64,000 bases of DNA, from contig OZ038459.1 of assembly GCA_964036195.1 (NCBI GenBank), forward strand, positions 25,169,206 to 25,233,205, read 5' to 3'. Positions 402 to 45,909 of the stretch are shown piece by piece. This DNA comes from Sphaerolaimus hirsutus (taxonomy: Eukaryota; Nematoda; Chromadorea; Monhysterida; Sphaerolaimidae). A model generated the notes under the pieces. It did not search any database, was not told where the DNA came from, and saw only the letters and a list, made by a program, of their open reading frames with translations. The position numbers and the translations under genes are program-made. Numbering within the stretch: the first letter of the stretch is position 1; the number at the start of each line of letters is the position of its first letter.

Positions 402-1589
402 TAACGATGGCAAAAAAAGATTCGAAAATTCGAAAACATTTTCGAATTTTCGAATTTTTTCAGAATTTTCGAATTTTTATTTCGCCCCTAGAAAAAACAC
501 TTAAAAATCGATTTATTTTTCAAAAAATTCGAAAATTCGAAAATAGTTTTCGAATTTTTCAGTCAATTCAAGGCAACAAAACGCACTCTTAAGTTCAACG
601 TGCTATATAAATCGACAATTGATACGCGGCGCGTATAAAAAGCGAAACGTAAGAAAAAAACGTTGAAATGTAATCTGCGGTGGAAGATGCAGACTTCAAC
701 ACATCCGTTTTTTATACCGTATTTCCTCAAAATATCACCCCCTCGAAATACCCCCTCAAAATTTACACTATGAATTTATAAACCCCCCTCGAAATACCCC
801 CCTCCCCAATTTGGTGTATAGAGAATGGAATGTGGTTTGTGATCTTGGAAACACAGAACACATGCCAAAACCACTCACTGTGTTGTGTTACAACAGATGT
901 GTCTATAGAGTCTTATAAATGGCAGTTTTTGTTGCATTTTTTCACATCTGTGTTACTTACAAACAACAATTTAGTACTGGGATTTTTAAAAATTTCAGGC
1001 AAAATAATAACCCCCCTCAAAATACACACCCTCGTTTAACCCCACCCTCCAAGTTTCCACTTTGAAAAAATAAACCTGTGGGGGGGGCAGCCAGCAGGGG
1101 GGTTAATTCAAGGAGATACGGTATTTGATACCAATTTTTTTATGCCGATATTTTATTTGATGTCAATTTTTCAATTGTTCTTGTTATTGCCTTCGCTGTG
1201 TTGGTGAATCAAATGTGCCAATGTGTGAATTAAATGAAGAAGCAGCACACTGGTTTGAATAACTCCTTCCACTTCCACCATTTTTAATGATAAATTATGG
1301 TAAAAATAAGGTTGTTAAAACTGAGCAGAACATGAAGACAGTGCAAATTCTATGTTTTAAGCTTAAGATTCAATATTTTACCAAAAAGATTCGAAAATTA
1401 TTTGAAAAAATTTGAAAACTAGCCAAAAAAATTCGAAAATTGCCAAAAAAGATTCGAAAATTCGAAATTCGAAAATTAAATTCGAAATTCGAAAATTATT
1501 TTGAAGAAAAATTCGAAAATTCGAAAATTCATTTCAGAAAAAACACTTAAAAATTTAAATACTTTTTTTTCGACTGTTTGCCATCGTTA
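402..1589. mobile_element. hAT-like non-autonomous element with TTCGAAAA body, interrupted by a second element
   Basis: The ends are inverted (TAACGATGGCAAA at 402, TTTGCCATCGTTA ending at 1589). A perfect 8-bp duplication GTGTCTAC lies at 394-401 and 1590-1597. The body just inside both ends is a self-complementary array of TTCGAAAAT units (about 415-570 and 1385-1560). A TACCGTATT element sits inside it (715-1123). Confidence 0.85.
715..1123. mobile_element. TACCGTATTTCCTCGAA-family element, nested
   Basis: Inverted ends TACCGTATTTCCTC and GGAGATACGGTA. C-rich arms (AATACCCCCC) flank a short core that includes the family's GAACACA segment. It lies within the TTCGAAAA element. TA dinucleotides are at both edges. 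Confidence 0.7.
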
Positions 1590-1617
1590 GTGTCTACAGG
1601 GTTTGGTGTGTGATGAT

Positions 1618-2493
1618 CAGGGTTGGCAAAATCTCAGAAAAAAATAAAATAAAATAAAAATAAAATGGAATATTCAAGAATAAAATAAAATAAAATGGAA
1701 AATTTAAGAAAGAAAAAAATTGTATAAAAATTAGAATTTTTGTAAATGTTTTGTAAAATTGTATAAAAATTCGTATATTTGTAAAATTGTATAAAAATTC
1801 ATATTTTTTGTAAAATTTTATCTCGTTGCTTGAGTTTCTACCTGTTTATTCATGGATCTGGGAGCAGTCCCAAGTCTAAAGTATCAAATGTCATGCAAAG
1901 TGTCAATTGTCATGACAAATGTAAGGTAAAGTGTAAATTGTCATGACATGTAAAAAATAAAGTATCAATTGTCAAGCAAATTGTGTCCAAATCAATGTCA
2001 TGACAATTGCCACTTTGCTTGAAATTTGACATGACACTTGACATTTTGCATGACAATTGACACTTTACTTTACATTTGTCATGACCATTGACAAATTGCA
2101 TTGCATTTTACAAATGTGCCCAGCACACTCCACTAGTCCTTCTACTGAAAATGCAAACCATTCTTATCAATAATTGTAACTTTACACTTGCAGCTAGCTA
2201 ACAATACATACTGCATGCAACTTTTGAAAAGTAAGGGAAAAATTTGTCACAGGTTTTTCATGTATAGGTCTAATTATAACATTTTTCTGGCCTTGCATGC
2301 ATGACTCTGATTTTTTGTAAAATTTTGTAAAAATTTTGTAAAAATTTTGTATAATTTTTGTAAAATGTGTTATTTAATTTTATTAATGACTTTTGGGAAT
2401 AAAATAAAATAAAACAAGAATAAAATAAAAATAAAATTTTTATACAATTTTTATACAATTTTACTAAAATGAATTTTTATGAAACCAACCCTG
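1618..2493. mobile_element. hAT-like element with AATAAAAT body and an inner GTCAAATG palindrome
   Basis: Starts CAGGGTTGGCAAAATC, ends CCAACCCTG, with a perfect 8-bp duplication GTGATGAT at 1610-1617 and 2494-2501. Both subterminal regions are AATAAAAT and TTTTGTAAAATT tracts in inverse order. The middle (about 1865-2115) is a separate palindrome of GTCATGACAAATG-type units. Confidence 0.88.
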
Positions 2494-2587
2494 GTGATGA
2501 TAATGTACAAGTTTAAAAAATAGATGAAAATTACAGTATAAAATACCAATTAGGGATAAAAATGTTATTTCCAATCGGTGTTATTAC

Positions 2588-2688
2588 TAGTGATGTAAAA
2601 AGCGCCAGAACTTTTCCGACCCCTAGCGCCAAAAGCGCCATGGCGCTTTTTGCTTTGGTGCTAGCGCCAAGGTGCTTTTACATCACTA
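2588..2688. mobile_element. Short hAT-like element with GGCGCC body
   Basis: Only 101 bp. Inverted ends TAGTGATGTAAAAAGCGCC and GGTGCTTTTACATCACTA. Perfect 8-bp duplication GTTATTAC at 2580-2587 and 2689-2696. The body is built of AGCGCCA, CCATGG and TGGCGCT units. Confidence 0.88.
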
Positions 2689-3405
2689 GTTATTACAAAC
2701 CATGTATTTACATTGAAAAATGACAATTTTTTCACATGTCATTTTGTCATGCATGACGCAAAGTTTGTCATTGGTCCCATTAACATTACCGAAAGTTGGC
2801 ACAGATCCATAAAAACAACGTTTATTATTTTGATAAAAAATATTGCAAGTAAATTTTTTTCGATTGAACGAATGGAATCAGTCAATGCAATCAGAATTTT
2901 TTACAAGTAAAATTTGTAAATATCGCAAGCTAAACTGCTCAAGTGTATAGCAATAATTTAGTTCAGTTTGCTATAATAGAAAATGAAATGCTAAACATAT
3001 TTCATTAATGTAAATCTCACAGCTTCAATAATGTATTTTCATATCATTAAAGCACTCGGGTTTAGGTTTATTGTATTAAATGAAACCAATTATAATATGA
3101 ATAATCTTTGAATATAAACAAATACCGTATGTCCTCGAATAAGTCCCCGGTTGTTTTCATCACTTTTTGACTGGGGAGTTATTGAAGGGGGGGGGGGCTG
3201 TAACTGAAACCAAATCTAATCAAACTAAGAACCATCACACGGAGTTACTCGCGCGGAGTATTCTTCCTCACTCCAGTAATAGGTAAGTTATTCAAAGGGT
3301 CTATTTTCGAGGGGGATTTATTCAAGGATTCTAACCAGCTGATTTACCACTTCGTAGGACTTGGTGTTTCTGCACTGCAGCAAAATGCTGAAAGGTACAC
3401 AAAAC

Positions 3406-3803
3406 TACCGTATTTCCTCGAAATACCCCCCCCCCCTCGCGAGACCACTAGAATAACTAGAACAATCACCCCCCCCCTCGAAATACCCCCCAGATTGAGT
3501 GTACAGAGAACGTACATGACAAATACTGCAGTTTGTGTTGTGCGTAGTGCAGAACACACGTTAAAACAATGTCGGAATCACGTTAGAACAGTGTTTATAC
3601 CGTCTACGTACTAATATTCTACAGCAGTCTATACATGTCAGTTATTGATGCATTTTTCTACCCCAGCGCACATCACAAACAACGATTCTGTACTACCATT
3701 TCAAAAAATTTCTGGAGAAATAATAACCCCCCCTCGTTTAACCCCCCTCTCGGGAGCAATATGAAACAATCACCCCCGGGGGGTATTTCGAGGAAATACG
3801 GTG
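3406..3803. mobile_element. TACCGTATTTCCTCGAA-family element
   Basis: Inverted ends TACCGTATTTCCTCGAAAT and GAGGAAATACGGT, C-rich inverted arms, and a core with a GAACGTACATGACAAATACT-type segment also found in the copies at 4048 and 49599. The copy at 49599-49984 is nearly the same element in the opposite orientation. Confidence 0.8.
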
Positions 3804-4047
3804 GTCGAAGCAAATTCCACAGCAAAGCCAAAAGACACCACCCGACTACACGAAAAAGTAAAAATCTGGGCTTGTTATCCAAAAATCTAAAATAAAAAAA
3901 TTGTCGGGCATTCGGGCACCTGGCAAATTCGTGACACTTAAAAATACACTCACACGGAATTTGGCGGGTCGCTGGACTACCACTGACATTTGATTAGGGG
4001 GGACCCTGCTTAGTGATAAAAAGCGCCAAGAAAAATTCAAAATCGAA

Positions 4048-4502
4048 TACCGTATTTCCTCGAAATACCCCCCCTCGAAATACTCCCCCCTCGTTTGACC
4101 CCCCCCCCCCCCTCGGGACCACGATGAAACAATCACCCCCCCCTCGAAATACCCCCCCCAAATTGAGTGCAAAGGGAACGTACATGACAATAACTGTAGT
4201 TTGTGTTCTGTGTACTGCAGAACACACGTTAAAACAATGTCGGTGTCACGTTAGAACAGTGTATTTACATACCATCTACATACTAATATTAGTCTACAGA
4301 ACCTTATAAATGGCGGTTTTTGTTGCATTTTTCGATGTCTGCGTACGTTTCAGACGACAATTTCGTACTTGCCTTTCAAAAATTTTCTTGTGAAATAATG
4401 ACCCCCCCTTCGAAATACCCCCCCCCCCTCGTTTAACCCCCCCCCCTCTCGGGACCACTATGAAACAATCACCCCCGGGGGGTATTTCGAGGAAATACGG
4501 TA
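4048..4502. mobile_element. TACCGTATTTCCTCGAA-family element
   Basis: Complete copy with both inverted ends and the same core as 3406-3803 (GAACGTACATGACA, then GCAGAACACACGTTAAAACA). The long open frames here are Pro- or Gly-rich translations of the C/G arms and are not genes. Confidence 0.82.
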
Positions 4503-6418: not shown

Positions 6419-6834
6419 TACCGTATATCCTCGAAACCCCCCCTCTCTCGAATAATTCACCCGCCCTGTGAGTGTGAGGAAAAAATAACTCCCCCTCGAA
6501 AAACCCACCACTTAGATGGGTAGAAAACATTTCACAACATTTTGATGTAGCTATTTAATATGTTAATATATTAATATGTATTTTCTTGTAGCTAGAGTTC
6601 ACTAACATTGATTTCGTTGCTTGACATGTGAATTTTGTATTCCTACAAATCAATTATGTTACCAAATAAACTTTAAATCAATCAATACCAAATTTTGCAT
6701 TTGTGCAGTTAACTTATCATACATTTTACAGAAAATTCTGACGAAAAATACCCCTCCCCCCTTCGAATAACCCCCCTAAAAAGCTTCTGACGAAAAAATA
6801 ACTCCCCGGGGGACTTATTCGATGATATACGGTA
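6419..6834. mobile_element. TACCGTATNTCCTCGAA-family element, divergent core
   Basis: Ends TACCGTATATCCTCGAAA and GATGATATACGGTA, with C-rich arms using AATAACTCCCC in place of AATACCCCCC. The core differs from the 3406/4048 type. Confidence 0.7.
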
Positions 6835-7379: not shown

Positions 7380-10300
7380 CTGGGGGTACAGGGGTACAGG
7401 GGGGTTGTGTAGGCATGCGAGAGTCTTCATGTGGGCAGTCTCGAGCCCTGGAAACTGGCAAATGTCACGCAATGTGTCAAAAGTTATGTAAAATGGAAAA
7501 TGTCAAACGACCTGTACAAAAAAATATTTTTGGGACATTTTACGGACTATTTTACATGACTTTTGGCATATTTATGCATGACATTTGACATTTTACAGAG
7601 CCTGGAAGTGGGGTTGGTAGGGGGGGGGGGTTGCTCCCCCCTAAACGCTCCAGCTATACCAAATCCCAGAGTGAAGACATAAACACAACTAAAAATGGCA
7701 AAGTGCCAAAAATAAACCGCACCCACCATCAAAATCATACATAACGACGCAGGTGCCCAAAACGGGCAGCAAATCGGGTTCATTATACAGTCGTTCCCCT
7801 TCGGGGGTGTGCGCCTCACTGGTCGCCGGCGTCTGGGCACTAGCGTTTGGCACGGCACCGGCACTAGCGTTGGCAATGGCATTGTTGCTAGTGTCGTGCA
7901 TGGTGCAAATGCCCGACTCGGGGCTGGCTGAAGCGACATTCTGCGCCGCCGGGGTCGATGCCAGGTTCGGAGCCGGTGGCCGCGCTGGCGGCGTGTCGCC
8001 CCCTGCGCTTGGTGGCGGGAGTTAAGTGGCCAGATATCATTTTGGATTTTGAAACTTGAATGGAATTAGACAAGTTGCAGCGGGGATTATTTTGATTATT
8101 TTTGAATTTCGAATTTGTGAAGTATAATAAATATAAATATACTGTATAATATATACCTATTGTATCATATTTGGTTTGTTCGTTGGTTCGTATGAAGATA
8201 CATCGATTCAATATAAAAAGATTTCTCCCCCATCACACATTGTTCATAAATACAATCAATGGACTGCAATGTGATTCAAATAACCCCCCCCCCTACAAAA
8301 AAGTAGCGAGCCCAAAAGTGAGTCAAGTGGAAGCGACCAGCTGCGAGACTGGCCAGTGGGCCGCGGGCCTTGGCTCCGCCGAAAATCTGCTTGGCGGTGG
8401 CGTGGGGCGGCAGCGGCTGGCTGCCCTCCGACGACACCGACTCCCGGTCGTCTGCGCACATTACAGTGGATACTTGGAAAAGTCCATAGTCCGGACAATT
8501 GAGCCCAGCACGCAACGCACCTTTCCATCTAGAATAGGTCACATATTTTTCACCTTTTTCCGAATTTTGTTCAACGTCACTCGCCCATTTCTTTGACATT
8601 TTTTGACAAAGACATTTTTTTGTTATATTTTGACACTTTTGTGACAAACGATAACTACACTCTTCTAGTCGGGATAAACAGCATGATCTAAACAAAAAAA
8701 TAAAAGTTCGGTAGCGTATTCGGATGTTGGGACGCTTTTTGTGCCTCGCCGCCACTCTACAGCGGTGCAATTGCGCCCGGCGCTCACAACCAGAAAAGCG
8801 CCACAGCTGTATTGGCCCCACAAACGTTAGTGGACATCGACACCAAATGTCAACTGGTTCCATTTCTAATCCAATGATTGCGTCTGAACGTCGTTCGTCC
8901 ACTCGTCAGCAAGCTTTGAATCGGGATCGGCACCAGTTGACATTTGGTGTCGATGTCAACTAGCGTGTGGGGGCCCATTGGCGATTGGCGTCACAATCCC
9001 TGCGCTTTGTGTATTCTGGCAGCACAGACACAGCAAACACACCGGAAATACTGGTGCCCTCGACACTGGCCGTGGTCGCATTGGAGGTCCTGTTGGCGCC
9101 GCTCTGCCCGCACTGGCTCTTGGGTCGCGGGCTCGAGTGGGCGGAGCCTGCAGACGGGGCGCCCGCAGCTGGCCCCGCCCCCTGGCTCACTGGTTGGTTC
9201 AGGTGCTTCTCCGCCTCCAGCAGATAGTTCTGGCAATTGGGGAGTTGTAATTGGCACTTTTCCAAGCGTCGCTGGGAGAATATTCAAAATAGTGGTCTAC
9301 TGGACGCATGATATTTACTGAAAATTTCTTTGAAAATCCAAACAAGGATTGTCAACTTTTTCGAAGTTAAAGTTAAGAAGTTGAAAAGTTAAAAAGACAA
9401 AAGAAAACTCAACATTTTACACCCGGATCGTAAATATAAGCGAATCCCGCATTCGGAAACGCGACAGGGGCGAAAATAAATGGTAGAATATGCGCCGTGT
9501 GTGAATCGAGTGACTAGTATTTTTCATTTACTTTTACTTGTCATTTAATAAATATTGATCACGTAACAGATATTTTATCTAACCACTTAACACTTTTCTT
9601 GTCACTTAAGAAACTTAAGCACCTTATAAGGCTCAACATAGCGCCTTAAAAGGCTCAAACTTATCACTGGGAAACAATGAAAGCTACCTTGTAGGTGTCC
9701 AATCTCTCCTGTAATTTGCCAATCTCATTGACAAGTTCTTTTAATTGCATCTGCACACCAGCTTTATCCCCGGCCATTTTGTCGTCGCTTGTGAACACTG
9801 AGTGCATTTTCTCAAGGCCCTCTCTGAAAAAAAGACTGGATTTGAAAAGTGTATTTTGATTGGTTTTAATTTGATTGAAGTTATCTGTTGTTTTTTGGGT
9901 TACATTTTTATATTGATATGGATTTAATTAATATGAACGAGAGCGAAGTTGAGGCCATGTAAATTGAAAGATTTCCTGTAATGTTACTGCGTTTTGTCAA
10001 CTATTTTGTATTTAGTTTCATGATGTTTACAAACTTCTTGACTGGCAGCACCTGGAAGCAATCCCGCTAAAGTGTAAATAAATTCTAATGTCAAATGTCA
10101 ACTAAAAGTAAAAAGAGAAGATATGATTACTGAACTTTTGACACTTTGAACGACAATAGACAAATTTGTATGACATTTTATATGGCATTTGACACTTTAA
10201 GGGGTACGTGACTGGCACCTAGCCCCAATCAAATTCCACAACGATTAAAAAACCCAGACACCCAAAATGAACCAAAGTAAAACCCAAAACCCAAAACGAA

Positions 10301-16300: not shown

Positions 16301-19300
16301 AAACATTAAATTATATTATATATGTAATCTTCAATTGTATTAAAATTATTCCCAAATTGCACTTGCCAGCGCACACAAACACAGAAAAAGGTACTCTTAG
16401 CGCACCGCATGGCACCGAAATAACGCATGGCTGCCCGCTGCACTGCGCTGTAGGGTTGGGGCACCGAACCGACCCGAGAACCGAGCACTATTTTGGAACC
16501 GAGAACCGGAACCGAAAATTTTCAGGAACCGAGAACCGATACCCGAACCGAAATCTTTTGGAACCGAGAACCGGAACCGAAAATTTTGAAATTCCCAACC
16601 CTACTGCGCTGCGCATTGTTAGATTGAGAACAGTTTCAGTTACGCCATATAAATACATGCTTATTTACATGCGTATTTATGTACGCATGACTATGAAACG
16701 AGAAACGACTGTGGCATATAACTGATATGTTCGGTCCCAGGGCGCCCATCTGTTTGAGTTGTGGCCACGCATAGTTTAGTGCAGAAACAAAGTTTGGCAA
16801 CTATTAAATCTGTTTTGAACACATTTGAGTTGACCAGAATGAATGATTTTTGATCAGTGTCAACTGAAGTTGACAGGCTCCTCATGGTGGTGAACTCAAA
16901 TGTGTTCAAAACAAATTTACGAGTTTCCCAAAATTTGTGGTGCACTGGTGTGCGCAGCGCCATTGTATGACTTGTAAATATCCACAAACTTGCATCAGTC
17001 AAGAGGAATAGTACTGTGTGTGTGTGTTTAGTTGTTGGGAATATTTTCTACTTGCATGTTCTGTTCTGTTGATTCCAAATTGACAAATTTAAATATAAGT
17101 TAAGCGTCCCTCCCTCCATCCCACCGGAAAAACATGTTCGACAACTTATAGTGCACTGTCAGAAATAGCGCCAGTGTGGCGCCACACTGAAATGGCGCCA
17201 AGCGCCAAAAGTGCCATGGCGTTTCCTGCTGTTCGCTGGCGCCGTGTGCTACTCACAGAACCTGTAAAATGTCAAATGTATCGCAAAATGTCGAAAGTGA
17301 TGTCATGAAAACTGGAAAAAGTCCGGTAAAAAAAATTCGCCACTTTCCGGGCATTTTATACGACTTCTCATTACATTTGAAATTTTTCAGCATCTGGAAG
17401 TTGTCCCAGGCCCTAAGCCGGGGAGCTTTCACATCACTTGATACCACGCACAAATACCAAGATGGTTGAGTCATAATAAATACTGTAGAGAAAAAGATAT
17501 ACCGTATTTCCTCGAAATACCCCCAGGGGGTTTATTTTTTCAGAGTGAGAATTTTAGGAGAAAAACGTGAAAAATGCAACAATAACCACCATTTATAAGT
17601 TTTTACAGCCTTATATAAGGATGTAGATGGTATAAACGATGTTCTAACGTAACACAGTAAGTGTTTTGAACGTCTGTTATGCATTTCCCGGACCACAAAC
17701 TCATAGTGCCCATTTTGAGGGGGGGTATTTCAAGGAAATACGGTAAACTAAATCTGACCAAATCCCCACAAGCTAACCAAGCCCGAGATTTACGGTCAAA
17801 ATAAATTCATCAGACCAGTGCTAATAAATTTAGCACACAGATAACCCATGAATACAGACACACACGTCAACGCAGATACTATCATTACACAATAGATAGA
17901 GTGGTTAATTGAACAAGGGGTGGCACGGGCTAGCACAGCTTCACGTGCTGCATTTAATGAAAGAAATCTTGCTACAGGTAGGCATTTTGGTATGTATCTA
18001 TTTATTAAGGGTCGAACGATATCGGTCTCGGTACCGGCCATTTTCAAGTTACGGTAAACTTTTATAAGTGAATAATGGCTTCGGATACGTAAGCATTCAA
18101 CAATAAAAAATTGAGATATGATTCTAATTTGCATTTTTCAGCAGTCTCCTGGTTACAAGGAGCTTAGTTTGAATCCACCAAAATCGAACATTAGCACCCC
18201 GTTCTTGTTCCGGTCCCGGTGCAGTCAGTCTCGGTCCCGGTGCCGAGAACCCGGTAGCATTTAAACCCTATTAATATGTATTGCAATAAGTTTCTCTCGT
18301 GACAATAATAATGTGAAACTTGCTTCAGTATTTGAAGCATGTAAATAAATGTTCTCACGCACACGATTTACGCGACAATTCAAGTGAAAATGCCACACAT
18401 TTCACCGACAATTTTTTTCAATTTTCAATAAGAAATGTCAAAATTAAAAATGACGGTCCCTTTCATTCGAATAAAAATCAAATCTAGTAAACGATATCAA
18501 TGAATTATGAAATTATCGAATTAGACTCAGCTGGTATTATTTTCATAACTCACAGTAAATTCCACATTCACTGCATGGAATGCATAAATAGTAAATAAAT
18601 GAATCATTGCCGGAAAATCGTCGAATTTTGAAGAACTACAAAAATATGTTCACCATGACATTTTTTGAATTTTGATTTCAAACAATTTTTCGACAAAAAT
18701 TGCCACAATTTCCCAGCGAATTTTAAGTGTCCTGAAATTTACCTGTCAACAGAATTTATCACTTGAGTATCAACTTCATTCACAAACAATATTCATGATT
18801 CGAATATGTTGTAATTGATTTGATTCCATGTGGAATGTACAGTCATTTCACCGAGAAAATGATTATAAATTATATCAAAACACGCACAACTGAATGAATC
18901 ACATTCAATCCTACGATTAAATCATTTTAACATTTTTTCACATGCAGCTTTTTTATTTTTCCTTCGTTTTTATGATTAGTGAATGCATAGGTACATTATC
19001 AATGTGTGTGCGTATTTTACATTTGGGTGAAATTTTGAAATCCGTGGTGCTAATTCCGCAGGTGGACACAGGGGTTTCTTAGGGGGGGGCTGGGGGGGGG
19101 GGCTGCCCCCCCCCCCAAATCGGCCAGCTATCTATCTATCCCGAGGCAATATTTTTGGCTACTACCCCCAAAGACCCCCCCCCCCCCAAATCGCTCAGCT
19201 ATCTATCTATCTGGAGTGGTTTTTGAGAAATTTTGCCCCAATTTTTGCTAAAAATCACTAATTTTCGCAACTTTTTATAGTTTTTCACCTTCAGAATCGT

Positions 19301-22300
19301 GCTTTCCGGCTATATACCTATTTTTAGCCATTTTAAAGCTACGTTTGGCTACTTTGAACTGATTATTAGCGATTTTTCCCCTTTCTGCTTTCTTAACCTT
19401 GAAAAAGCCTATATATTGTGCCCCCGCCAGCCCCCCCCCCCCAGAAAAATTTCAGCTATCATCCCTCCGGAGGAGCGATTTGCTATCCATCCAGCCCCCG
19501 CAAGGGCCAAAATCTTGGAGACCCCTGGGTGGACAAGTGATAAGACAAGCAAAATATAAGTGGTAAGTGAAAAAAAACAAGTAATTTTTTAAAAAATTGG
19601 CTTGTCACTGAAAAGTTTCAAACTCGTCACTTGATTTACTACTTTTCTTGTCACTTGTTCACTTGTGGAAAAGGCACCTGGTCCCAATCAAACCAAAATA
19701 ATCAAGATCACACATTTTCTTGCTTGTGTGCATACAACGCTGAGTGATCGCATTTCTACCCTGTTTATGTGAATACATAAATGTGTGTGTACGATAGGGT
19801 TGGACATTCAAAATTTTCGGTTCCGGTTCTCGGTTCTAAAAAGTTTCGGTTCGGTTCTCTGTTCCAAAAAATGTTCGGTTCCGGTTCTCGGTTCGGTTCT
19901 TAAGTTCGGTTCCGGTTCGGTTCTTTCAGTTCCAAATTTTAAAAAATTTCGGTTCTTTTGTTCGGTTCCGGGTCTAAGTGTCGGTTCTCGGTTCCGGTTC
20001 GGGTATTTTTTTCGGTTCCGGTTCTCGGTTCCAAAATCGTGCTCGGTTCTCGGTTCGGTTCGGTTCGGTTCCCCAACCCTAGTGTACGATATCACAGCAG
20101 ACCAATTTATTTAGGTCTGTTTTGGGCACATGAGACCTGAATTTATGCAAATAACACGTGAAACATGTATCATATAAATACTCTATTCCGCATGGCACAA
20201 GTATTTCAGATAGATAGTTACAATATTTGTTCACAGGTATCTATTCAATATAAATCAATGCCCATATGTTCATATAAGTACGTATTTCATGTCATAAATA
20301 TGATACAATTTCGATATTTTTGAAACTTAGTGCTCACACAGCGGAAAATAATGACATAAATAAAATGTGACGCTTTTGTATTTTTCTGGCCCCAACAGCA
20401 CACCTGAGATCTGACACAGTTGGTTAAGTACACAAAATATTCACCAATCTGATTCATGACTAAGATATAAAAGAATAATGTTACGAAAAAGGAAACGTTA
20501 AAAAATTCAACAGCCGGAAAACGAAGAGGTAACATTTATATCTACAGAAAACGTAAAACGTTGACAAATTCCTGGCTCACAACAAAATCGAGCATGCATG
20601 CACTGCTCAAGCGATATATACTTTTCGATATTAAAATTTTCGCTTTTCAAAAATTTCGCTCAAAAATAGTCGATATCCGATACAGTAAACAATTGGTTAA
20701 AAATTATGAATTTTACCAATCGCAAAAGATCCACATAAATAAAATACACAGATCCCCATCACAAGCAAATAGCCAGTGGTCACTCAAATTTATGTATTTC
20801 TGTTTGCTTTGGCGGTAGTCAAGTGGTGGATTTAAAGTATACACTTTCACAGGCATGAAGATTTGAACCTAACTTTGAGATTTAAGTGCCATGACCCCTA
20901 ATGGTCTGTTTATTTTTACTTTAAGTTGTTCGATATATAATGCACACCGCGCTTCCACCCCACTGAGTTTGGGGGGGGGGGAATGATAGATACATAAAAA
21001 CACGGTTTTTTCTATCACAAAACATTCAATTTATCACATCACTTTATTTGCCAAAATACGGTAACATTCTGTTCAAAACATGCGGTCCACTAGGCATTAC
21101 TTTTTTATCGTACTTGACACCCGACTACCTTCGTGCATTCTTTATCCCGGATGTTTAATATCCCCGTTGGGGGCAGGCCTGATACGCACATCTGCCCGTT
21201 ACGCACATTTGCCCGTTTTTTCACTTGACACATTTTCAAGTGATTTTCAGATATGAGTGAAGTGAAAAAAAGTTCACTAATCTCATTGCGCAGCGTTTTT
21301 CACTTCACTCATATCTGAAAATCACTTGAAAATGTGTCAAGTGAAAAAACGGGCAAATGTGCGTAACGGGCAGATGTGCGTATCAGGCCTGCCCCGTTTA
21401 AATGGCCCCACACACAAAAGCACCAGTTTACTGCGAAAATCTTGGAAACTGGAAAATTATCTTCGAATGCACTTCAGTTCACGGAAATGAGGAGTGGTCA
21501 ACTAATCTTGACCGATTGAGATAAAAAATGATTAAACCTGATTCTTGTAAAGCCAAATGCGTTTCAGATGTATTTTTTTATACGCGGCGGACATCACACT
21601 TAGTATTTATGAAAACCTACCATAACCCATCTGAATAATGAACCAAAAATTTCAGTTTTTTCATCATAATATTTCGTTTTTACCATGGATTAATTAAGTA
21701 CGAAATTCATCACAAGATTTTATTCATAAAATCATGGTAGGTTTTCATACTAGGTGTGCTGTCCGCCGAGTATATACTCCAGGGTTAACACCCATTTCGG
21801 CCGCGCCATCGCGGCCGAAATGTCCACGGCCGAGATGGCGCGGCCGAAATGGGTCCCTACCGTACCATACTCCAGTTACTTTACACCCTGCACGCATGGT
21901 TCCCGCTGGAAGCGTGCCAACGATTGTTATACGCATGAAATTTTAATAAAAAGTTAAAAAAAGTTATCGTTGTTATAACGCTAAACGTTAACTTGTTCAC
22001 AACTATAAATTTTATCATCTTATATACAAAAATCGCATACTTTATCATCATTGGCATGCTTCCAACGTGAGACATAAATGAGTGCGAGGGCAGAGTATCA
22101 TGTCCGCCGAGTATAAATACCACCCGCGGAAATTGCGCTACACTACGCGCCAAATTTTTATCCAACCGATTTTATTTTCAAATTTTGGTAGTCCCCATCA
22201 GACAAATTTCAAATCACAAAAAGCGAAAATATGAAAATGATTCATTAAAATTGTACAGTATCTGTTTGAGAAGTGACGTTTTTACTTTTTTATCGCACGA

Positions 22301-32051: not shown

Positions 32052-32441
32052 GGGGCAGGCCTGATACGCACATCTGCCCGTTACGCACATCTGCCAGTTA
32101 CGCACATTTGCCCGTTTTTTTCACTTGACACTTTTTCAAGTGATTTTCAGATATGAGTGAAGTGAAAAACGCTGCGCAATGACATTAGTGAACTTTTTTC
32201 ACTTCACTCATATCTGAAAATCACTTGAAAATGTGTCAAGTGAAAATAGCCATTTTCACTGTTTTTCACTTGACACATTTTCAAGTGATTTTCAGATATG
32301 AGTGAACTGAAAAAAGTTCACTAATGTCATTGCGCAAGTTTTTTTCACTTTACTCATATCTGAAAATCACTTGAAAAAGTGTCAAGTGAAAAAAACGGGC
32401 AAATGTGCGTAACGGGCAGATGTGCGTATTAGTGCACCCCC
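32052..32441. mobile_element. Double hairpin element of the GATACGCACATCTGCCCG family
   Basis: Ends as in 14561-14790, but the body holds two successive palindromes of TCACTTGACACTTTTT/GATTTTCAGATATGAG units. 9-bp flanks GTCGCACAC (32043-32051) and GTCGAACAC (32442-32450) differ at one base. Confidence 0.78.
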
Positions 32442-33171: not shown

Positions 33172-33613
33172 TAGGGTTGGCCGATGTTTTCTTTTAAACG
33201 TTTCATTTTTTTAAAAAAACGTTGTTTTTTAAAAACACGAGGTTCAAAACGTTTTTTTTATTTTAAAACATCGGTCGAAATTTTTTGTACTCAGCACTAG
33301 GTATTTTGCAAAATATCACTATTAAATGCCAAACTTCACTTGAAGTCACGAACATTCGACTATAAGATGATGTACGAACATGTCGACAAAAAATGGACAT
33401 TTTTGACACAAATCACCACTTATAATGCTATCCCATGGCTCCACAGACATTATATGGTCATATATAACAACACAGAGTATTGTCACTTGTCTGATATACA
33501 TATATCTGTTGACCCAGAGCCATATCTGGGAGCTTTAAAAAAAAGTTTCTTTTAATAAAAAACGTTGTTTTTTAAAACATGGAGTTGAAAAAAACGTTTT
33601 TTTTTCAACCCTA
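33172..33613. mobile_element. hAT-like element with TTTAAAAAAACG ends
   Basis: Starts TAGGGTTGGCCGATG, ends TTCAACCCTA, with a perfect 8-bp duplication CTCATCGC at 33164-33171 and 33614-33621. Subterminal AAAACGTTGTTTTTTAAAA tracts, and a core with GCTATCCCATGGCTCCACAG shared with 39737-40914 and 41986-42688. Confidence 0.9.
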
Positions 33614-34734: not shown

Positions 34735-35174
34735 CAGGGACGTACGCAGGATTTTTGAGCGGGGGGGGCGGATTGTATACGGAGCCCGGCGAACGGGGGG
34801 GGCGGCGCCCCCCCCCCCCCTAAATTTTGGCCCTATAGTAAGGAAATGGAGCCATGGCGCTGGCGCCATTTGTAGGCGCCAACGCCATGGCAGTATTGGC
34901 GCTGGCGTTGGCGCCAACGCCTACTATATAGGTGTCTATTTGTACCTATATTTCGTACTGGAATCATGTTGGGTACGTTTCTCACGCTGTTAGATCCCGG
35001 AAAAAATACATAGTAATCATTGGGCGGGAATTTGCGCGCTTGCGCGCCAAAAAATTTTTAGAAGTGCCAACCAAATCGCCTCAGAAAAGTGCCATTTCAG
35101 GCAAATTTTCATGTCCGGCCCGGGAACGGGGGGGGGCGGCCGCCCCCCCGCCCCCCCCCCTGCGTACGTCCTTG
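34735..35174. mobile_element. hAT-like element (CAGGGACGTACG type)
   Basis: Starts CAGGGACGTACGCAGG, ends CCTGCGTACGTCCTTG, with a perfect 8-bp duplication CAAATGCT at 34727-34734 and 35175-35182. G/C runs, GGCGCC tracts and a TTTGCGCGCTTGCGCGCCAAA palindrome. Confidence 0.9.
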
Positions 35175-35332: not shown

Positions 35333-35596
35333 TACCGTATTTCCTCGAATTACCCCCCGGGGTTTTTTTCAGGGTGAAAATTTTGAGAGAAAAACGTGAA
35401 AAATGCAACAATAACCACCATTTATAAGTTTTTACAGCCTTATATAAGGATGTAGATGGTATAAACGATGTTCTAACGTAACACAGTAAGTGTTTTGAAC
35501 GTCTGTTATGCATGTCCCGGACCACAAATTCATAGTGCCCATTTTGGGGGGGGGGGTATTTCGAGGGGGGGGGGGCTATTTCGAGGAAATACGGTA
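35333..35596. mobile_element. TACCGTATTTCCTCGAA-family element, subtype B
   Basis: Ends TACCGTATTTCCTCGAATT and GAGGAAATACGGTA. The core is nearly identical to 17500-17744. Confidence 0.85.
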
Positions 35597-36221
35597 AGTG
35601 TCAAGCATGAAGAAAGCTTACAATTTGCATTACATGGCACAATACTAATTGCATTGATAAATTAGAATCTTGAAACAAACTAAGACATAGAAACAGAATC
35701 GGGATTGCTTTTTGAATTGTTCATACCGGGATTGGGGTCTCAAGATCACGATCGGGATTGGCATTTTTAATTTACAGCATATCATTTTAGATCGAGTCGG
35801 GTCGGGTTTCAAACGCTAGCATTGGCCAATTTCACATGGTTAAGCCCAAGCTGCCAACAGACAATAGCTCATGGATCGCATGTCACGTTGCTATTGGCTT
35901 TTGCATGTGATCAAAATTTCATCACACCCAAATTGATGCGCGGCAATTTTATTCTGATGGAAGCAAAAATATTTTGTTTTATTGTATATAAATACTACAA
36001 ATATTTGGGTCGATAAAAATGCTAATAAATAAAATATCCGAGATATAGGACAAAAGTTATGCAGTAAAGTCAGTAAATTCATATGTGAACTGTACAAATG
36101 AATACACTTGTATGCTTATCGGATACAACGAAGGTTACTGTATTTGATGAATAAAGTCACATAAAAACTATATGCAACAGATTTACTCATAATAAGGGCA
36201 ATGCAATCTATGAAAAGCACT

Positions 36222-36593
36222 TACCGTATTACCTCGAATTATCCCCCCTTAACTACCCTCCCCCATTACCCCCCCCCTCAAAGGGGCTGGGGAAATAATA
36301 ACCCCCTCGAAATACCCCCCTCCGGAATGATGTACATAATGTATGCAATGTACATGATGCATTTATTACTGCTAATTTGCACTGCAGCTACACATAGACT
36401 AGTTGTGTAGCTGTATACGTTTTTATGTCCAAATATACCCTGTTTGAACACATGTATTACCTGTTTTGGGTACGCAAATGCCTACTATTTCCTACGATCC
36501 TTAAGAAAATTTCTGACGAAATAATAACCCCCCCCCTAAATTTTGCTGGCGAAATAATAAACCCCAGTGGGGGTATTTCGAGGTAATAAGGTA
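36222..36593. mobile_element. TACCGTATTACCTCGAA-family element, variant
   Basis: Ends TACCGTATTACCTCGAATT and GAGGTAATAAGGTA, with C-rich arms and a core containing CATGATGCATTTATTACTGC. Both ends carry the matching change (TTACC/GGTAA) relative to the commoner TTTCC/GGAAA. Confidence 0.75.
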
Positions 36594-39500: not shown

Positions 39501-39736
39501 GGTGCACCAGAAAAACAATATCCACGTATGCATAATCTAAGCACTTATGCAGCATAATTCAAGCACGTTCATCGCATAACCTAAGCATGTTTGCAGCATA
39601 ATCTGAACATTTTTATGCAAAATTGATGCAGTTATTTCATATTATTTACAGCATAATCCAAGCAAATGTTACTATCGGTTAGGCAAAATTCAATCACCTT
39701 TGTGTATGTAGTGATAATGTTGATAACATGTGCAAC
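36594..39736. other. Gene-free stretch with two opposed CAGGGG-type fragments around an assembly gap
   Basis: 37715-38092 is a reverse-oriented and 38346-38705 a forward-oriented fragment of the 19069-19527 family. The 200 N at 38146-38345 separate them. 38712-38826 is a CCCTGTAAAATG-type foldback. The remainder has no coding or repeat signal I recognise. Confidence 0.5.
38146..38345. other. Assembly gap (200 N)
   Basis: Exactly 200 N, a conventional placeholder length. It lies between two inverted copies of a G/C-run repeat, which probably blocked assembly. Confidence 0.98.
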
Positions 39737-40914
39737 TAGGGTTGGCTGATGTTTTTTTAAACGTTATATATTTTTTAAAACGTTGTTATTAAAAAAACAC
39801 GAGGTCAAAACGTTCAAAAAAACACCAGGCAAAATTTTTAGTACTAAGCACTAGGTATTTTGCAAATTTTTTGCATGAAAGCGTTCAATTTCACACACGA
39901 ATTGACATTGGTGGTTGTTTTCATTGATGTTGTGGCATTTTTAGTATGAAAGCTAGGGTTTTTTAATGCGATGTTTTAAAAAAAACAACAACTTTTTTAA
40001 AAATTAAAAACGTTTTTTAAAAGCTCCCATATATGTTCCTGGGTCAACATATATAGGTATATTAGACAAGTGACAATACTCTGTGATGTTATAAATGACC
40101 ATATAATGGCTGTGGAACCATGGGATAGCATTATAAGTGGTGATTTGTGTCAAAAATGTCCATTTTTTGTCGACATGTACATATATCGCCTTAGTTGAAT
40201 GTTCGTGACTTCAAGTGAAGTTTGGTATGGAATAGTGATCAATCAAGGTTATAAAAGGAGGTTGTTACTTTGGGAGTGATGTTACACACTGTGGAGGTAC
40301 ATGGAAGCACATTACCTGAATATTATATACTACAGCAACATATGACGGCTTATTTACCCATGGTAGCACATAGAAATGGATACTCAAAATGCCAAAAAAC
40401 ATTGAAAACAACCACCACTGTCAATTTGTGTGTGAAATTGCGCACTTGCGTGCAAAAATTTTGCAAAATACCTAGTGCTTAGTACTCAAAACTTCAGCCG
40501 ATATTAAAAAAAATGTTTTGGACCTTTTAAACAATGTTTTTTTAATGAAAAAACGTTTAAAAAAACATCAGCCAACCCTAATCAAAGCAACCATTTCTAT
40601 GTGCTACCATGGGTAAAAAAACCATCATTTGTTGCTGTAGTATACTAGTATATAATATTCATGTAATGTGCTTCCATGTACCTCCACAGTGTATAACATC
40701 ACTGCCAAGGTAACAACCTCCTTTTATAACCTTGTTTGATCACTATTCTGTGCCAAACTTCACTTGAAGTCATGAACATTTGACTATAAGGTGAAATACA
40801 AACATGTTGACAAAAAATTGGCATTTTTGACACAAATCACCACTTATAATGCTATCCCATGGCTCCACAGCCATTATATGGTCATATATAACATCACAGA
40901 GTATTCCAACCCTA
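39737..40914. mobile_element. hAT-like TTTAAAAACG element, interrupted by a second copy
   Basis: Starts TAGGGTTGGCTGATG, ends TTCCAACCCTA, with a perfect 8-bp duplication TGTGCAAC at 39729-39736 and 40915-40922. A related element in opposite orientation is inserted at 39954-40580. Confidence 0.87.
39954..40580. mobile_element. Nested hAT-like TTTAAAAACG element
   Basis: Starts TAGGGTTTTTTAATGCG, ends GCCAACCCTA. Flanks ATGAAAGC (39946-39953) and ATCAAAGC (40581-40588) differ at one base. The uninterrupted relative at about 42205 reads TATCAAAG, so the right copy is the original target. Confidence 0.85.
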
Positions 40915-41590
40915 TGTGCAACAGTAAATTTTTCAGATGTTTAAAGTTATTATGCAGGTCAGTGACAAGTAACATGTCGTACTTTTCATGCAGATTATCC
41001 TTAAACAACATATATAAATAAAAAACAATTAGCATTGCAAAAATAAAAACAGTTTAAAACATTGAAAAATATCAAAAAATCATTCATTTATTTAATAACA
41101 TTTTATTTATGAAGGGAAAAAGATAACCTATGTATATTTTGTATAATTTATCTGCTTTTATCAGAGAGATTTTCTGATAGTATATTTTATCATATATTTT
41201 CTAAAATCACCCAATTTTTTGCATTGCTTCACCAATAGAATTTCCACAATATCTCAAGTCGCTTCAAAACTTCAACTGTTATTTTGTAACATTCTGAGCT
41301 TGGATTATGGATACTTGTATTTCGATGCACACACGCAATGCATCGCCCAGGTAATGAAGTGTAAATTGTCTCCCAAATGCAAAATTCAATGGCCGACCAA
41401 TTTTCGTAGGTCATTGCACCTGAATCCAGGGAATAATTCTCACACATAGGCAAATTTGACACGCCAGCATGAGTAAAAATGTATGAAATGCTCATGTATA
41501 TTTGGCGCCTCAAAAAATTTGTGGTGTTCAGGCACAGGGGCGCATCCACAATTTTTGAACGGGGGGGGGTACGGGACCTGGCGTCACCCA

Positions 41591-42825
41591 TAGGGTTCAA
41601 ACGGGATCCCGATCCCGGATCCCGTGAAATTCCGGGATTTAGCAGTCCCGATCCGGATCCCGAAACCCCAATCCCGATCCCGAAATCCAAAAATACCAAT
41701 CCCGATCCCGATCCCGAAAACTTTCAAATCCCGATCCCGATCCCGAGAATCTCCCAAGTCCGGGATCCCGATCCCGGAAAAAATAGTGAAAATTATAAAA
41801 AGTGAAAAAATGACATTTTTGCGTGCAAAAACGTGAACGCAAACCCCCAGCGTCCATTTTATGTCACTTTTCTGGCATCCAACAGTGTTTTGATACCTTT
41901 ATTAACAACTGTGAATGCCAGAACAGTGACGAAAATCTCTATCCCTAGACCCCAATCCCGATCCCGAAAAAATGCCAATCCCGATTAGGGTTGGCCGATG
42001 TTTTTTTTTAAACGTTTTTTATTTAAAAAAACGTTGTTTTTTTTTAAAAAACATGACGTCCGAAATGTTTTTTTTTTAAAAAAAACATCGACCGAAATTT
42101 TTAGTACTAAGCACTAGGTATTTTGCAAAATTTTTGCGCGCAAGCGCGCAATTTCACACACAAATTGACATTGGTGGTTGTTTTCATTGGTTTTGTGGCA
42201 TTTTTAGTATCAAAGTATCCATTTCTATGTGCTACCATGGGTTAATAAGCCGTCATATGTTGCTGTAGTACATAATATTGAGGTAATGTGCTTCCATGTA
42301 CCTCTACAGTGTGTAACTTCACTCCCAAAGTAACAACCTCGTTTTATAACCTTGTTTGATCACTATTCCGTGCCAAACTTTACCTGAAGTCACGAACATT
42401 CGACTATAAGGCGATATACGAACGATATGTCGACAAAAAATGGATATTTTTGACACAAATCACCACTTATAATGCTATCCCATGGCTCCACAGACATTAT
42501 ATGGTCATATATAACGTCACAGAGTATTGCCACTGTCTGATATACCTATATATCTTGACACAAGGTCATATCTGGGAGCTTTAAAAAAAAAACGTTTTTT
42601 ATTAAAAAAAACGTTTTTTTTATAAAAAAAACGTTGTTTTTTTTAAAAAAAACATCGAGTTAAAAAAAAACGTTTTTTTCCAACCCTAATCCCGATCCCG
42701 TGACCCCAATCCCGGCCAATCCCGAAATCTCAAAAAACCAATCCCGATCCCGAAACCCATATCCCGATCCCGAAATCTCAAAAAGTGAATTCCGATCCCG
42801 AAAAGTCAATCCCGTTTGAACCCTA
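41591..42825. mobile_element. hAT-like element with ATCCCGATCCCG body, interrupted
   Basis: Starts TAGGGTTCAAACGGGA, ends CCCGTTTGAACCCTA, with a perfect 8-bp duplication GTCACCCA at 41583-41590 and 42826-42833. The body is an array of AATCCCGATCCCGAAA units on both sides of a nested element. Confidence 0.9.
41986..42688. mobile_element. hAT-like TTTAAAAACG element nested in the ATCCCG element
   Basis: Starts TAGGGTTGGCCGATG, ends CCAACCCTA, with a perfect 8-bp duplication ATCCCGAT at 41978-41985 and 42689-42696, taken from the host array itself. It is uninterrupted and shows the full family core. Confidence 0.9.
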
Positions 42826-42965
42826 GTCACCCATGCATACAGATGGCGCTGGCGAGTCTTTGCTTTTGACAGGTCAGAAAAGCATCAATTAAAACAAGCT
42901 CTTGTGCAGGTGGCAAACCCCCACCTGGGTATGTCCGCTATCAGGCAAATACCGGGTGGCAATCC

Positions 42966-43117
42966 CGCACCCTGTAAAGTGTTATGTCAATTGTCAACTG
43001 TCATGCAAAGTGTCAATCCATATAAAACGAGAAACAGAGAAAAATGAAAGATTTTTACTAAATTTTTCACGTTTTGAATGACGTCTGACATTTTCACTTC
43101 ACTTTACAGGGTGCGGG
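42966..43117. repeat. CCCTGTAAAGTG-type foldback
   Basis: Left end CCCGCACCCTGTAAAGTG, right end CACTTTACAGGGTGCGGGA-like, inverted, around GTCAATTGTCA units. Confidence 0.65.
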
Positions 43118-43799
43118 AATGTGTTTTTTTAGTGTTTCAGCAACATTTCGCATGGGTGGAATCACAATGTACTCAGCATTCTTGTTCAGTACAATTAGGA
43201 TAATCCGAGGTCAACATTCTTCTGTTCATCAAAAAATGTACATTGAGCACGCTATATTTGTGCATGTTTATAAAATTCAATCCCCACCACCCACCAACAT
43301 TATATTATTCCCCTTTTTTATTGAAATTCCACATTTGACAGGAAATATGCCAAGTGCAATCTCAAACTAAGTAGAAATAAGTGTCAATTCAGTTTCAAAC
43401 CTAAAAAATGTCATTGATAGATTGGTTGGGACCAAAAATATATTTACTTCCACAAAACACAAACAAAGAGTAAACACCACACACACACAAAGTAAAATAA
43501 CATGTGGGCAGTAAATTTGTGTCAACTATGCACCTGTCATATTTTTGGAGAGAAAAAAACAACAGAAACATTATAAGTTGTTTTTTGTTGATTATTGTGT
43601 ATGAAATTTATGTTGTAAATTCATAGTATTGTAAGACCATCCAGCAAAATTCAATTCAGCAAAATATGGTAAGCGTGTGCCAATAAAATTATCAAAGTTC
43701 CACTCAAAATCACTGGTGTTATTTAGTGACTATGCACACAATTTAGCTGACAACCAAATTTTCAAAAAGTGAAAAATCTGTTCTAGAGACACACCTGAG

Positions 43800-44502
43800 T
43801 AGGGTTCAAACGATGACTTTTCGATATCGATATTCGATATTTTTTTCTGAAACTCGATATTCGATATCGATACGATATGGAACCTCGATATCGATATTCG
43901 ATATTGAAAAATGGTCGATATTCGATATTTCGATATTTTCGATATTCGATATTGCGATTTGCTTTTGGTATAGCAAGGCATATTTCAAGTGGCATATTGT
44001 ATTTTCATGTGGTTGCACACATCGTTAATCATCTCTTTACTGAAATGTGAATGGTACAAGTGATTTTGACAAGGTTTACATCACTCAAAAGTAGAAAATG
44101 GAAGAGAAACATGATGAATCAAAGTGTATCAGACAAATAACAATTGGTAGATATCACAGTTCATACTTATAACCTAATTGCTTAAGGGCATGTTGCAAAA
44201 AATAGCATATCAGCATTTTCAACCTTCAAATTTAGCACTCCAACAAAAATTACATTATAAATACTGTACTTTTACTTATCAAATACAATACTATAAGCAA
44301 ATCAGATCAATCATAAATATCTCAAAATGAAAATGATAACTTGATTCAGGGACACAATGCAGGTTCGATATATCGAAAAAATGGTCGATATTCGATATCG
44401 ATATTCGATATTTTTTCAAAATTTCCGATATCGATATTCGATATGAAAAAATGGTCGATATCCGATATTCGATATTCGATACGATATATTGTTTGAACCC
44501 TA
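43800..44502. mobile_element. hAT-like element with TCGATATTCGATATCGA body
   Basis: Starts TAGGGTTCAAACGATG, ends TTGTTTGAACCCTA, with a perfect 8-bp duplication CACCTGAG at 43792-43799 and 44503-44510. The arms (43815-43960 and 44360-44490) are arrays of TCGATAT(T) units around a non-repetitive AT-rich core. Confidence 0.92.
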
Positions 44503-44510
44503 CACCTGAG

Positions 44511-45390
44511 TTTGATAAAATCATGAATTTTTTGACGTCCAGAACCTCCATCAAAATTAGTTGACGTACTCATCATTCTGGTAAACTCAAATGTTGTCAT
44601 TAAGTGTGTGCAGTGCCTTTTGAATATTTTTAACAGCCCCATTTTGTGTGAAAAGTAGTGCCTTTTCAAGTGCAGTCGGCAGTCACATTGGAAACAAAAG
44701 TTGCCCTTTTGAAGTCAAATGGTTTGAGTGTTTGGTGTACTTAAATTTTAGATGTTTTTGAAGTGTTTATGACACAGAAATTCTGTTTCAAATACAACCA
44801 CGCGCAATGGGTGTTCTAAAAACTATATTTTGGAATTAATATGCAATAAAATTGGAGGGGAAATTGCTGACGCCAGAAAAGAGTGACAAACGTTTCTGAA
44901 AAGTAAAATGCGTAAATATAAAGTACACTTCAAAAGTACATTTCATTCAAAGAACTTTCACAAACAATGCATCTAAAAAGTGTTCGAAAAAGTACGACGC
45001 TTACTAAACCCAACAAAAAGTTAAAATGTCCCCAACGAAACGTGGAAAAATAACTAATGATGCATTCAAACGGATACTTCCAAAAGGACATAAAAGCCCA
45101 CCAATTGGTATAAGCCTCCATTTGATTGATTGCATCCAAATTCATATTATACAAACACTGAAGATACTATACGAAAGTAACGTTTGCGTGCGTATCTATA
45201 CTTTTTTACTGTGTGTGACTAAAAATGTTATGTGTTATAGGTTTGAGTTTTCGTAATAATAAATACAGTGTTAGATTGAATTAAACAATAAATGCAGTCT
45301 GAGTGATTATTGGTATACTGCTCTTAGAGCATGCTTCAGAGATCGTACTTTGGTGAAAAAATTGATGCGAAAACTTATGCACCCAAAAGG
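44511..45390. other. Gene-free AT-rich stretch
   Basis: A weak GGTAAACTCAAATG piece near 44580 resembles the GCTGCACACACTAG family. Otherwise I see no genes, repeats or signals. Confidence 0.4.
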
Positions 45391-45398
45391 GGTGGGGG

Positions 45399-45909
45399 TA
45401 GGGTGTCAAAATTTCCGTTTTCCGAAGGCAATTTTTTTCCGTTTTCCGCTCAGTTTTCCGGCCGCTGAATTTTTCCCGTTTTCCGGCCATCCATTTTTCC
45501 GGCTCGTTTTCCGGCTCAATTTTCTGTTTTTCCGCCTGTTTTGTATTTCCCGGCTCAATTTTCTGTTTTTCCACCTCATATTCTATTTTTCCGGCTCAAC
45601 TTGTTGTTTTCTGTTTCAGCCAAACTGGTAAACATGCATGCAGGTTTTCAACTATGTTAATTTTCCCCATTTTCCATCAAAATTTCAGCAATTTTTACCA
45701 GTTCCAGCAATTTTTTTCTGTTTTCCGGCAAAATTTAAACAATTTTTTCCGTTTCTGTGCAAATTTCATTTTTCCGTTTCCGGTTTTCTGGCCGCTGAAA
45801 ATTTTTTTACGTTTCTGTTTTCAGGCAAGTGCAATTTTTTTCCTGTTTTCCGGCCGCTGAATTGTTGTTCCGTTTCCGTTTTCCGTAAAAAAAATTTTTT
45901 GCCACCCTA
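45399..45909. mobile_element. hAT-like element with TTTTCCGGC body
   Basis: Starts TAGGGTGTCAAAATTTCCG, ends TTTTGCCACCCTA. Flanks GGTGGGGG (45391-45398) and GGTGGGGT (45910-45917) differ at one base. The body is a same-strand array of TTTTCCG/CCGGCTCA/GGCCGCTGA units, which gives a Phe-rich open frame that is not a gene. Confidence 0.83.

Follow-up and report, generated by a model that had tools for sequence, protein, structure and literature searches.

Small hAT-like elements with class-specific subterminal motif arrays in a 64-kb stretch of the nematode Sphaerolaimus hirsutus

Transposons of the Ac-type hAT group (Hermes, Herves, Ac/Ds, Tag1 and Tol2) have 8-bp target-site duplications (TSDs) with the base preference nTnnnnAn, short tips, and a motif that is repeated in the outer 100-200 bp and starts near the tip, and these features for the most part recur in 15 small hAT-like elements, of ten terminus/array classes, that we found within a 64-kb window, namely the whole analysed stretch of 64,000 nucleotides from the nematode Sphaerolaimus hirsutus (GenBank assembly GCA_964036195.1, contig OZ038459.1, positions 25,169,206 to 25,233,205). 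According to the papers cited here, both ends of Herves carry repeats of the motif CG/AATTCAT, which is critical to transposase binding and also suffices for it, the left terminal inverted repeat (TIR) being unbound, and the transposases of Ac, Tol2 and Tag1 likewise bind short repeats (PMC3143072). The bound motif at the right end of Herves occupies 15-22 bp (PMC3143072), the BED-binding stretch of crystallised Hermes is bp 11-27, the Hermes BED finger binds AAG(T/C) sites that are clustered toward the tips (PMC10368747), and ends of about 100-220 bp are required in Ac, Tol2, Tag1 and Hermes. Of the Hermes subterminal repeats, the left-end STR2-7 are antisense and the right-end STR1-5 sense (PMC10368747), which in our reading places the sites on one strand of the whole element if both ends are read tip inward.

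We interpret the elements of the window as non-autonomous hAT elements that resemble miniature inverted-repeat transposable elements (MITEs) and belong to at least eight, probably ten, families, and we infer, with a probability of roughly 0.7, that each array would mainly be the set of docking sites for a separate transposase of that family. The elements are ordinary in kind and their arrangement is a known one, the density and variety of the motifs being the sole unusual features. The 15 elements, none of which has an assigned strand, are as follows.

E1, 402..1589: tip TAACGATGGCAAA; 17 TTCGAA copies arrayed at the two ends, solely within 194 bp of a tip, core with other repeats; TSD GTGTCTAC on both sides, TIR 13 bp.
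E2, 1618..2493: tip CAGGGTTGG; ATAAAAT arrays at both ends, solely within 197 bp of a tip; TSD GTGATGAT on both sides, TIR 9 bp.
E3, 2588..2688: tip TAGTGATG; GGCGCC array over the whole length; TSD GTTATTAC on both sides, TIR 13 bp.
E4, 16451..16603: tip TAGGGTTGG; GAACCG array over the whole length in a single direction; TSD CTGCGCTG on both sides.
E5, 19069..19527: tip CAGGGGTYTC; G/C runs; TSD GGTGGACA on both sides.
E6, 19795..20081: tip TAGGGTTGG; CGGTTC array over the whole length in a single direction; TSD GTGTACGA on both sides.
E7, 33172..33613: tips TAGGGTTGGCCGATG and TAGGGTTGAAAAA; AACGTT/TTTAAA arrays at both ends, solely within 76 bp of a tip; TSD CTCATCGC on both sides.
E8, 34735..35174: tip CARGGACGTACGCA; G/C runs at element positions 27-86 and 394-426, close to the two ends; TSD CAAATGCT on both sides.
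E9, 39737..40914: rearranged relative of E7 and E11 (blastn to both); array at the left end, none at the right tip; TSD TGTGCAAC on both sides.
E10, 41591..42825: tip TAGGGTTCAAACGGGAT; an ATCCCG array at each end, mostly in a single direction, interrupted by E11; TSD GTCACCCA on both sides, TIR 17 bp.
E11, 41986..42688: element with AACGTT arrays, nested within the right-hand E10 array; TSD ATCCCGAT on both sides.
E12, 43800..44502: tip TAGGGTTCAAACR; TCGATAT arrays at both ends, solely within 146 bp of a tip; TSD CACCTGAG on both sides, TIR 12 bp.
E13, 45399..45909: tip TAGGGTGKCAAAA; TTTCCG units across the element in a single direction; TSD GGTGGGGG/GGTGGGGT, 7/8.
E14, 50375..50558: tip TAGTAATG/TAGTGATG; GGCGCC array over the whole length; TSD CTCACTAC on both sides.
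E15, 57432..58263: tip TAGTGATG; GGCGCC arrays at both ends around a 515-bp motif-free core; TSD CACCACAC on both sides.

A preliminary description of this DNA had listed at least eight element types between 402 and 45909. Its observation is largely right; two of the ten classes, E5 (CAGGGGTYTC) and E8 (CARGGACGTACGCA), are missing from its list, and the GGCGCC member at 2588 lies inside that interval and those at 50375 and 57432 outside it. A probable degraded GGCGCC element with no clean duplication, followed by a poly-C run, is located at 53013-53162. Related GGCGCC-rich blocks outside the TAGTGATG elements occur at 14186-14300, 46177-46267 and 63825-63939, and a shorter similar block lies within E8 at 34861-34905.

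The elements were found by a scan that was independent of the termini named in the preliminary description and that looked for exact 8-bp direct duplications flanking 9-bp inverted ends (at most one mismatch in the ends, spacing 60-4000 bp, low-complexity ends excluded). It returned 32 pairs in the window against 0-2 in 10 first-order Markov controls; at other duplication lengths the window gave 27 (7 bp), 5 (9 bp), 74 (6 bp), 102 (5 bp) and 293 (4 bp) pairs, the controls covering length 8 only. We retained 14 of the 32 pairs as elements and discarded 18, of which six lie in palindrome interiors, their outer flank extending as a perfect inverted repeat, two extend at 6/8, and the remaining 10 were by-eye calls of array-internal or unsupported pairs; the 6/8 criterion is weak, as the retained E3, E4 and E11 likewise continue outward at 6/8. 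In all 14 retained elements the duplication occurs at length 8 exclusively (lengths 4-12 checked), and a 15th element, E13 (unit TTTTCCGG), matches at 7/8 duplication bases; the 8-bp duplications previously proposed are thus confirmed. The 14 exact duplications fit the Ac-type rule nTnnnnAn at 17/28 positions (p 0.001). The target preference of Buster-group hATs is nnnTAnnn, and this pattern was matched at 4/28 positions only. The preference nTnnnnAn is the one given for Hermes (PMC10368747).

The element tips point in the same direction. Short TIRs of hAT elements start with approximately YARNG, and the tips found here are short inverted repeats of this type: TAGGG, CAGGG, TAGTG (TAGTA at one E14 end), CARGG and TAACG. 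The TIR is perfect over 7-17 bp in 12/15 elements, E8 and E14 having an early mismatch and E13 matching at 12/13. The shared termini claimed in the preliminary description are indeed enriched in the window: YAGGGTTGG occurs 12 times (expected 0.80; 12 reached in 0/100 shuffles), TAGGGTTCAAACG three times (expected 0.00) and TAACGATGG three times (expected 0.35), the copy of the last at 55658 not being the tip of any element found. They do not cover every class, as the GGCGCC elements end in TAGTGATG/TAGTAATG and the TTTTCCGG element in TAGGGTGKCAAAA. The length and base preference of the TSDs, the sequence of the tips and the position of the motif support hAT-type ends, and the same four lines of evidence support the earlier suggestion that the arrays bind transposase.

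For the position of the arrays, one frequent motif per class was mapped in 13 elements of eight classes, the two G-run classes being set aside. The motif is repeated at both ends of the mapped elements, with the right end of E9 as the exception. In E1, E2, E7, E10, E11, E12 and E15 the copies are all found in the outer 76-203 bp at either tip, and the core of 184-841 bp between them is free of the motif; end confinement was found against uniform placement in seven of the eight elements tested (p 5e-5 to 0.007), the eighth being E9 (p 0.18, not significant). The units extend over the whole length in E3, E4, E6, E13 and E14, so the earlier statement that each body consists of its own unit is correct for these five and not for the seven elements with end-confined motifs. 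The first copy starts 11-28 bp from the tip at 23/26 tips; the exceptions are the right ends of E1 (65 bp), E2 (57 bp) and E9 (358 bp). In the G-run elements, judged by inspection only, runs are seen near both ends of E8 and less clearly in E5. Spacers between copies are uneven in length, the copies of E6 are near-tandem (25 in 287 bp), and array length varies between copies of a family with similar ends (E4 153 bp, E6 287 bp).

The directional motifs mostly keep a single direction across both ends: CGGTTC 0:11 in E4 and 25:0 in E6, TTTCCG 17:0, ATCCCG 26:3, ATAAAAT 10:2 and TCGATAT 22:6, whereas the orientation of GCGCCA is mixed (4:1, 11:5, 22:11). The directional classes do not show the mirrored layout of the long-inverted-repeat type, and their one-direction sites are a feature in common with Hermes as read above. 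The characterization of the units as mostly self-complementary was about half right, with TTCGAA, AACGTT, GGCGCC and much of TCGATATCGA being palindromic and CGGTTC, ATCCCG, AATAAAAT and the TTTCCG unit being directional.

Beyond these likenesses, the window elements differ from the described Ac-type hATs in having denser, near-tandem motifs; the motifs of Ac and Tol2 differ between their two ends (PMC3143072), whereas the window elements use one motif for both. The maize Ds1 and Ds-l4 elements are also non-autonomous, have little beyond the tip and a subterminal hexamer in common with the autonomous element, and in Ds-l4 the filler is variable, but a single hexamer, AAACGG, serves the whole group, whereas each family in the window has its own motif (PMC3260210). 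This hexamer is present at least three times in 17/331 Ds1 and 438/486 Ds-l4 elements (PMC3260210). In the tandem-repeat MITEs (lepidopteran mobile microsatellites, Xenopus Xstir, miDNA4), tandem repeats are likewise spread by a non-autonomous element, but there they arise from or ride on the element, while the window motifs lie at both ends near the tips (PMC9659126). The pandoravirus elements hAT-NA1 to NA5 also form several MITE families with similar hAT tips and one proposed autonomous partner, but the words "tandem" and "subterminal" have no occurrence in that paper's main text (PMC6004678). A coral CMITE (PMC2872659) and the pineapple Ac-mMITE (PMC8449440) were set aside as comparisons, the former being described as piggyBac-like and the latter as Mutator-like in (TA)n.

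Under the docking-site interpretation, each family would be mobile by cut and paste through a transposase that another part of the genome provides. The catalytic part of this enzyme would act on the 8-13 bp tip, recognition of which would be slow to change, so that tips would be similar across families, while a BED zinc finger would dock on the short motif whose copies fill the outer 100-200 bp. This motif would be family-specific because each transposase lineage would have its own specificity, judging from Ac, Tag1, Tol2, Herves and Hermes. The arrays may lengthen or shorten by unequal exchange or slippage, and filler may replace inner DNA during faulty gap repair after excision, which would produce the range from the all-array E6 to E12 with its end arrays and other core. 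E7, E9 and E11 have long stretches in common, core included, at 82-92% identity, and E9 contains the left part of E11 twice, once forward and once inverted (blastn), a structure that we read as faulty gap repair following excision. Since the right array of E10 contains E11, and the duplication ATCCCGAT flanking E11 consists of E10 array sequence, E11 moved at a time when the E10 array already existed.

Between copies, the letters of the motifs are retained more often than the other letters, as a count of the letter pairs kept shows. For GCGCCA, 617/730 motif pairs were kept against 296/407 others (five rows from four elements, including a degraded one; exact motifs), or 651/782 against 262/355 with one mismatch allowed; for AACGTT the counts were 99/108 and 575/675 (four rows, three elements), and for CGGTTC 72/80 and 49/64 (two rows). 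An earlier, biased count, which used the motifs of the first-named element, gave 56/57 against 44/57 and 81/82 against 67/87 for E14 and the two E15 ends, 66/66 against 76/85 for E4/E6, and 17/18 against 111/122 and 11/11 against 93/102 for E7/E11.

Several points weigh against the docking-site interpretation. The conservation is suggestive at most, since the copies are few, the pairs are dependent and array homogenisation yields the same sign, and the alignments favour motif-on-motif pairing. Motif density is not an independent test, because the motifs were picked for their frequency in the elements; position is. No hAT match was obtained with Pfam among the 75 window open reading frames scanned (176 listed; longest 211 aa). 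E9 has a perfect duplication despite its nearest AACGTT starting 358 bp from the right tip. The ends of an abundant TA-flanked repeat family in the window bear CTCGAAATACCCCC, which is repeated just inside in several copies. In maize, some Ds1 elements transpose without the hexamer, and the tested Ds-l3 and Ds-l4 carry the hexamer yet show no excision (PMC3260210), so that, on these reported cases, mobility neither strictly requires a motif array nor is ensured by one. In Hermes, elements with two left ends (LE/LE) retain little activity and those with two right ends (RE/RE) none, and the LE/LE transposon was not rescued when the asymmetry of the sites in its first 50 bp was restored (PMC10368747); a one-direction array would therefore differentiate the two ends, but alone it need not confer mobility. 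A section heading of the Hermes paper also calls support from auxiliary transposases at inner sites unlikely, and the dense inner motif copies of the window elements are thus possibly not all used.

One alternative is that each family was once a continuous tandem array between hAT tips and that the core is later filler, in which case motif position and direction would reflect history and not function. The units do lie end to end in E4, E6 and E13, and the directional motifs mainly keep a single direction across both ends, but the likeness of E7, E9 and E11, core included, indicates that this family spread with its core already there. This account is compatible with, and partly included in, the docking-site explanation, and the odds of the two overlap; as an explanation in its own right we consider it quite unlikely.

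About as doubtful is the view taken in the preliminary description, that one or a few hAT transposases read a common tip, YAGGGTT(GG/CAAACG), and move bodies whose arrays are interchangeable and turn over freely. The evidence for it comes from the tips. In a comparison of 45 class pairs, uncorrected and with a null that fixes the first two letters alone and so retains general hAT-tip likeness, E10 (ATCCCG) and E12 (TCGATAT) had 12/12 tip bases, TAGGGTTCAAACR, in common (0/2000 random pairs were as similar), the CGGTTC class (two elements) and the AACGTT class (three) shared the tip TAGGGTTGG at 9/9 (null 0.0015), and the ATAAAAT class (E2, tip CAGGGTTGG) was 8/9 like both of them (null 0.0055 and 0.0125). 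The TTTTCCGG class was borderline, at 7/9 (null 0.07-0.09) and at 10/12 with the AACGTT class (null 0.003). There is also a precedent in the five pandoravirus hAT MITE families, for which a single mover, hAT-5, is thought to act and whose tips are identical in two families and alike at 5-8/10 nt in three (PMC6004678). The occurrence of the same tips with different arrays accordingly holds for two tip groups (TAGGGTTCAAACR with ATCCCG and TCGATAT; YAGGGTTGG with three arrays). It does not by itself establish one interchangeable-array system: related tips unite six of the ten classes (TTTTCCGG being borderline), and TAACGATGG, TAGTGATG, CAGGGGTYTC and CARGGACGTACGCA stand apart, the tips of the GGCGCC, TTCGAA and both G-run classes reaching 7/9 likeness with no other class. 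The bodies of different array types are without long blastn similarity, the sole cross-class matches being 33-39 bp between E5 or E11 and E8. Furthermore, since binding in Herves depends critically on the array motif, which also suffices for it, and leaves the left TIR unbound, different arrays should require different proteins and more probably reflect different transposases than a single interchangeable-array system. We also speculate that tip and array are two separable codes, such that hAT lineages with nearly the same tip swap or re-evolve the BED finger and their elements re-array, so that array types would have diversified on shared tips within one genome (three arrays on YAGGGTTGG, two on TAGGGTTCAAACR), although we hold this to be unlikely.

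The other option of the preliminary description, that the arrays are chance slippage products hitch-hiking in MITEs with no binding role, is the least likely of the alternatives, for although array length differs between E4 and E6, MITEs have been recorded with (GTCY)n and other tandem repeats (PMC9659126), and microsatellites carried by MITEs are an existing idea, to judge by two titles cited in that paper (Coates 2011; Hikosaka & Kawahara 2004), free slippage predicts neither one motif at both ends within about 200 bp around a motif-free core nor a first copy 11-28 bp in at 23/26 tips, the spacers are uneven, and the tip-independent placement that it leads one to expect was contradicted by end confinement in seven of the eight elements tested.

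The window contains other repeats. The abundant family with the end CCGTATTTCCTCGAAATACCCCC occurs at 717-1121, 3125-4500, 6421-6438, 17502-17743, 35335-36591, 49601-49982, 51185-51627, 58490-58916 and 61213-61342, and TA precedes the family end CCGTATTTCCTCGAAATA in 21/22 end matches (at most three mismatches, by-eye count), TA being either a duplication or part of the end. A foldback family with tandem copies of the 17-bp unit TACGCACATNTGCCNGT at each tip is present at 14573-14777, 21183-21382 and 32065-32428, its arms being 98-100% complementary in the two of three copies listed. As the TA-flanked and foldback families show it too, motif repetition beside the tip is common among the small elements of the window. 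Inverted arrays of the TGTCAAATG/ACATTTGACA type lie at 1876-2112, 26655-26993 and 42964-43117; the last is enclosed by facing ends CCCGCACCCTGTAAA, of which five single ends (at most two mismatches) are found elsewhere. The window also holds part of a gene of the FNBP1/CIP4/TOCA type, a family whose distribution points to an animal host, with exons on the minus strand at 9667-15510: the F-BAR piece at 15085-15510 matched PDB 2efl (E 6.9e-8) and scored 18.9 bits with Pfam FCH, below the cut-off of 27.8, and the HR1 piece at 9667-9927 (E 2.8e-7) scored 31.2 bits, above the cut-off of 27. An Rfam scan of the window at gathering scores and a tRNA scan were both empty.

Searches with the array and end sequences gave no further relatives. 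The TCGATAT array and CCGTATTTCCTCGAAATA had no match in a viral contig set, in which one contig (L001) matched a gapped TAGGGTTSG/CGGTTCGGTTC pattern; we attribute this to chance, given its 62% GC and the lack of such an array in the 560 bp seen. TAGGGTTGGGGAACCGAACCGAACC and TACCGTATTTCCTCGAAATA had no match in a genome contig set; records from the window's own genome may be missing from these collections. A search of the open-access literature for the tip strings gave nothing relevant, the query needing at least two of six terms and thus missing any paper with a single string, and hAT MITEs with family-specific arrays were not described in the titles and abstract openings of the papers found, from which we do not claim absence from print.

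CpG is contained in seven of the eight array motifs, against 16.6% of window hexamers, and, as a further part of the two-code speculation, docking might be gated by cytosine methylation. A reading based on CpG depletion was discarded: the CpG observed/expected ratio of the window is 0.94, and the elements hold 15.3% of its CpG in 13.7% of its bases.

Should the arrays prove to be footprints of BED fingers, a different one for each, the genome would be a natural library of hAT finger specificities, with ten tip/array classes in 64 kb, each legible directly from the DNA. Pairing the arrays with their transposases would reveal how the pace of evolution of finger specificity compares with that of tip recognition. 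It could also yield hAT vectors that work side by side without cross-talk.

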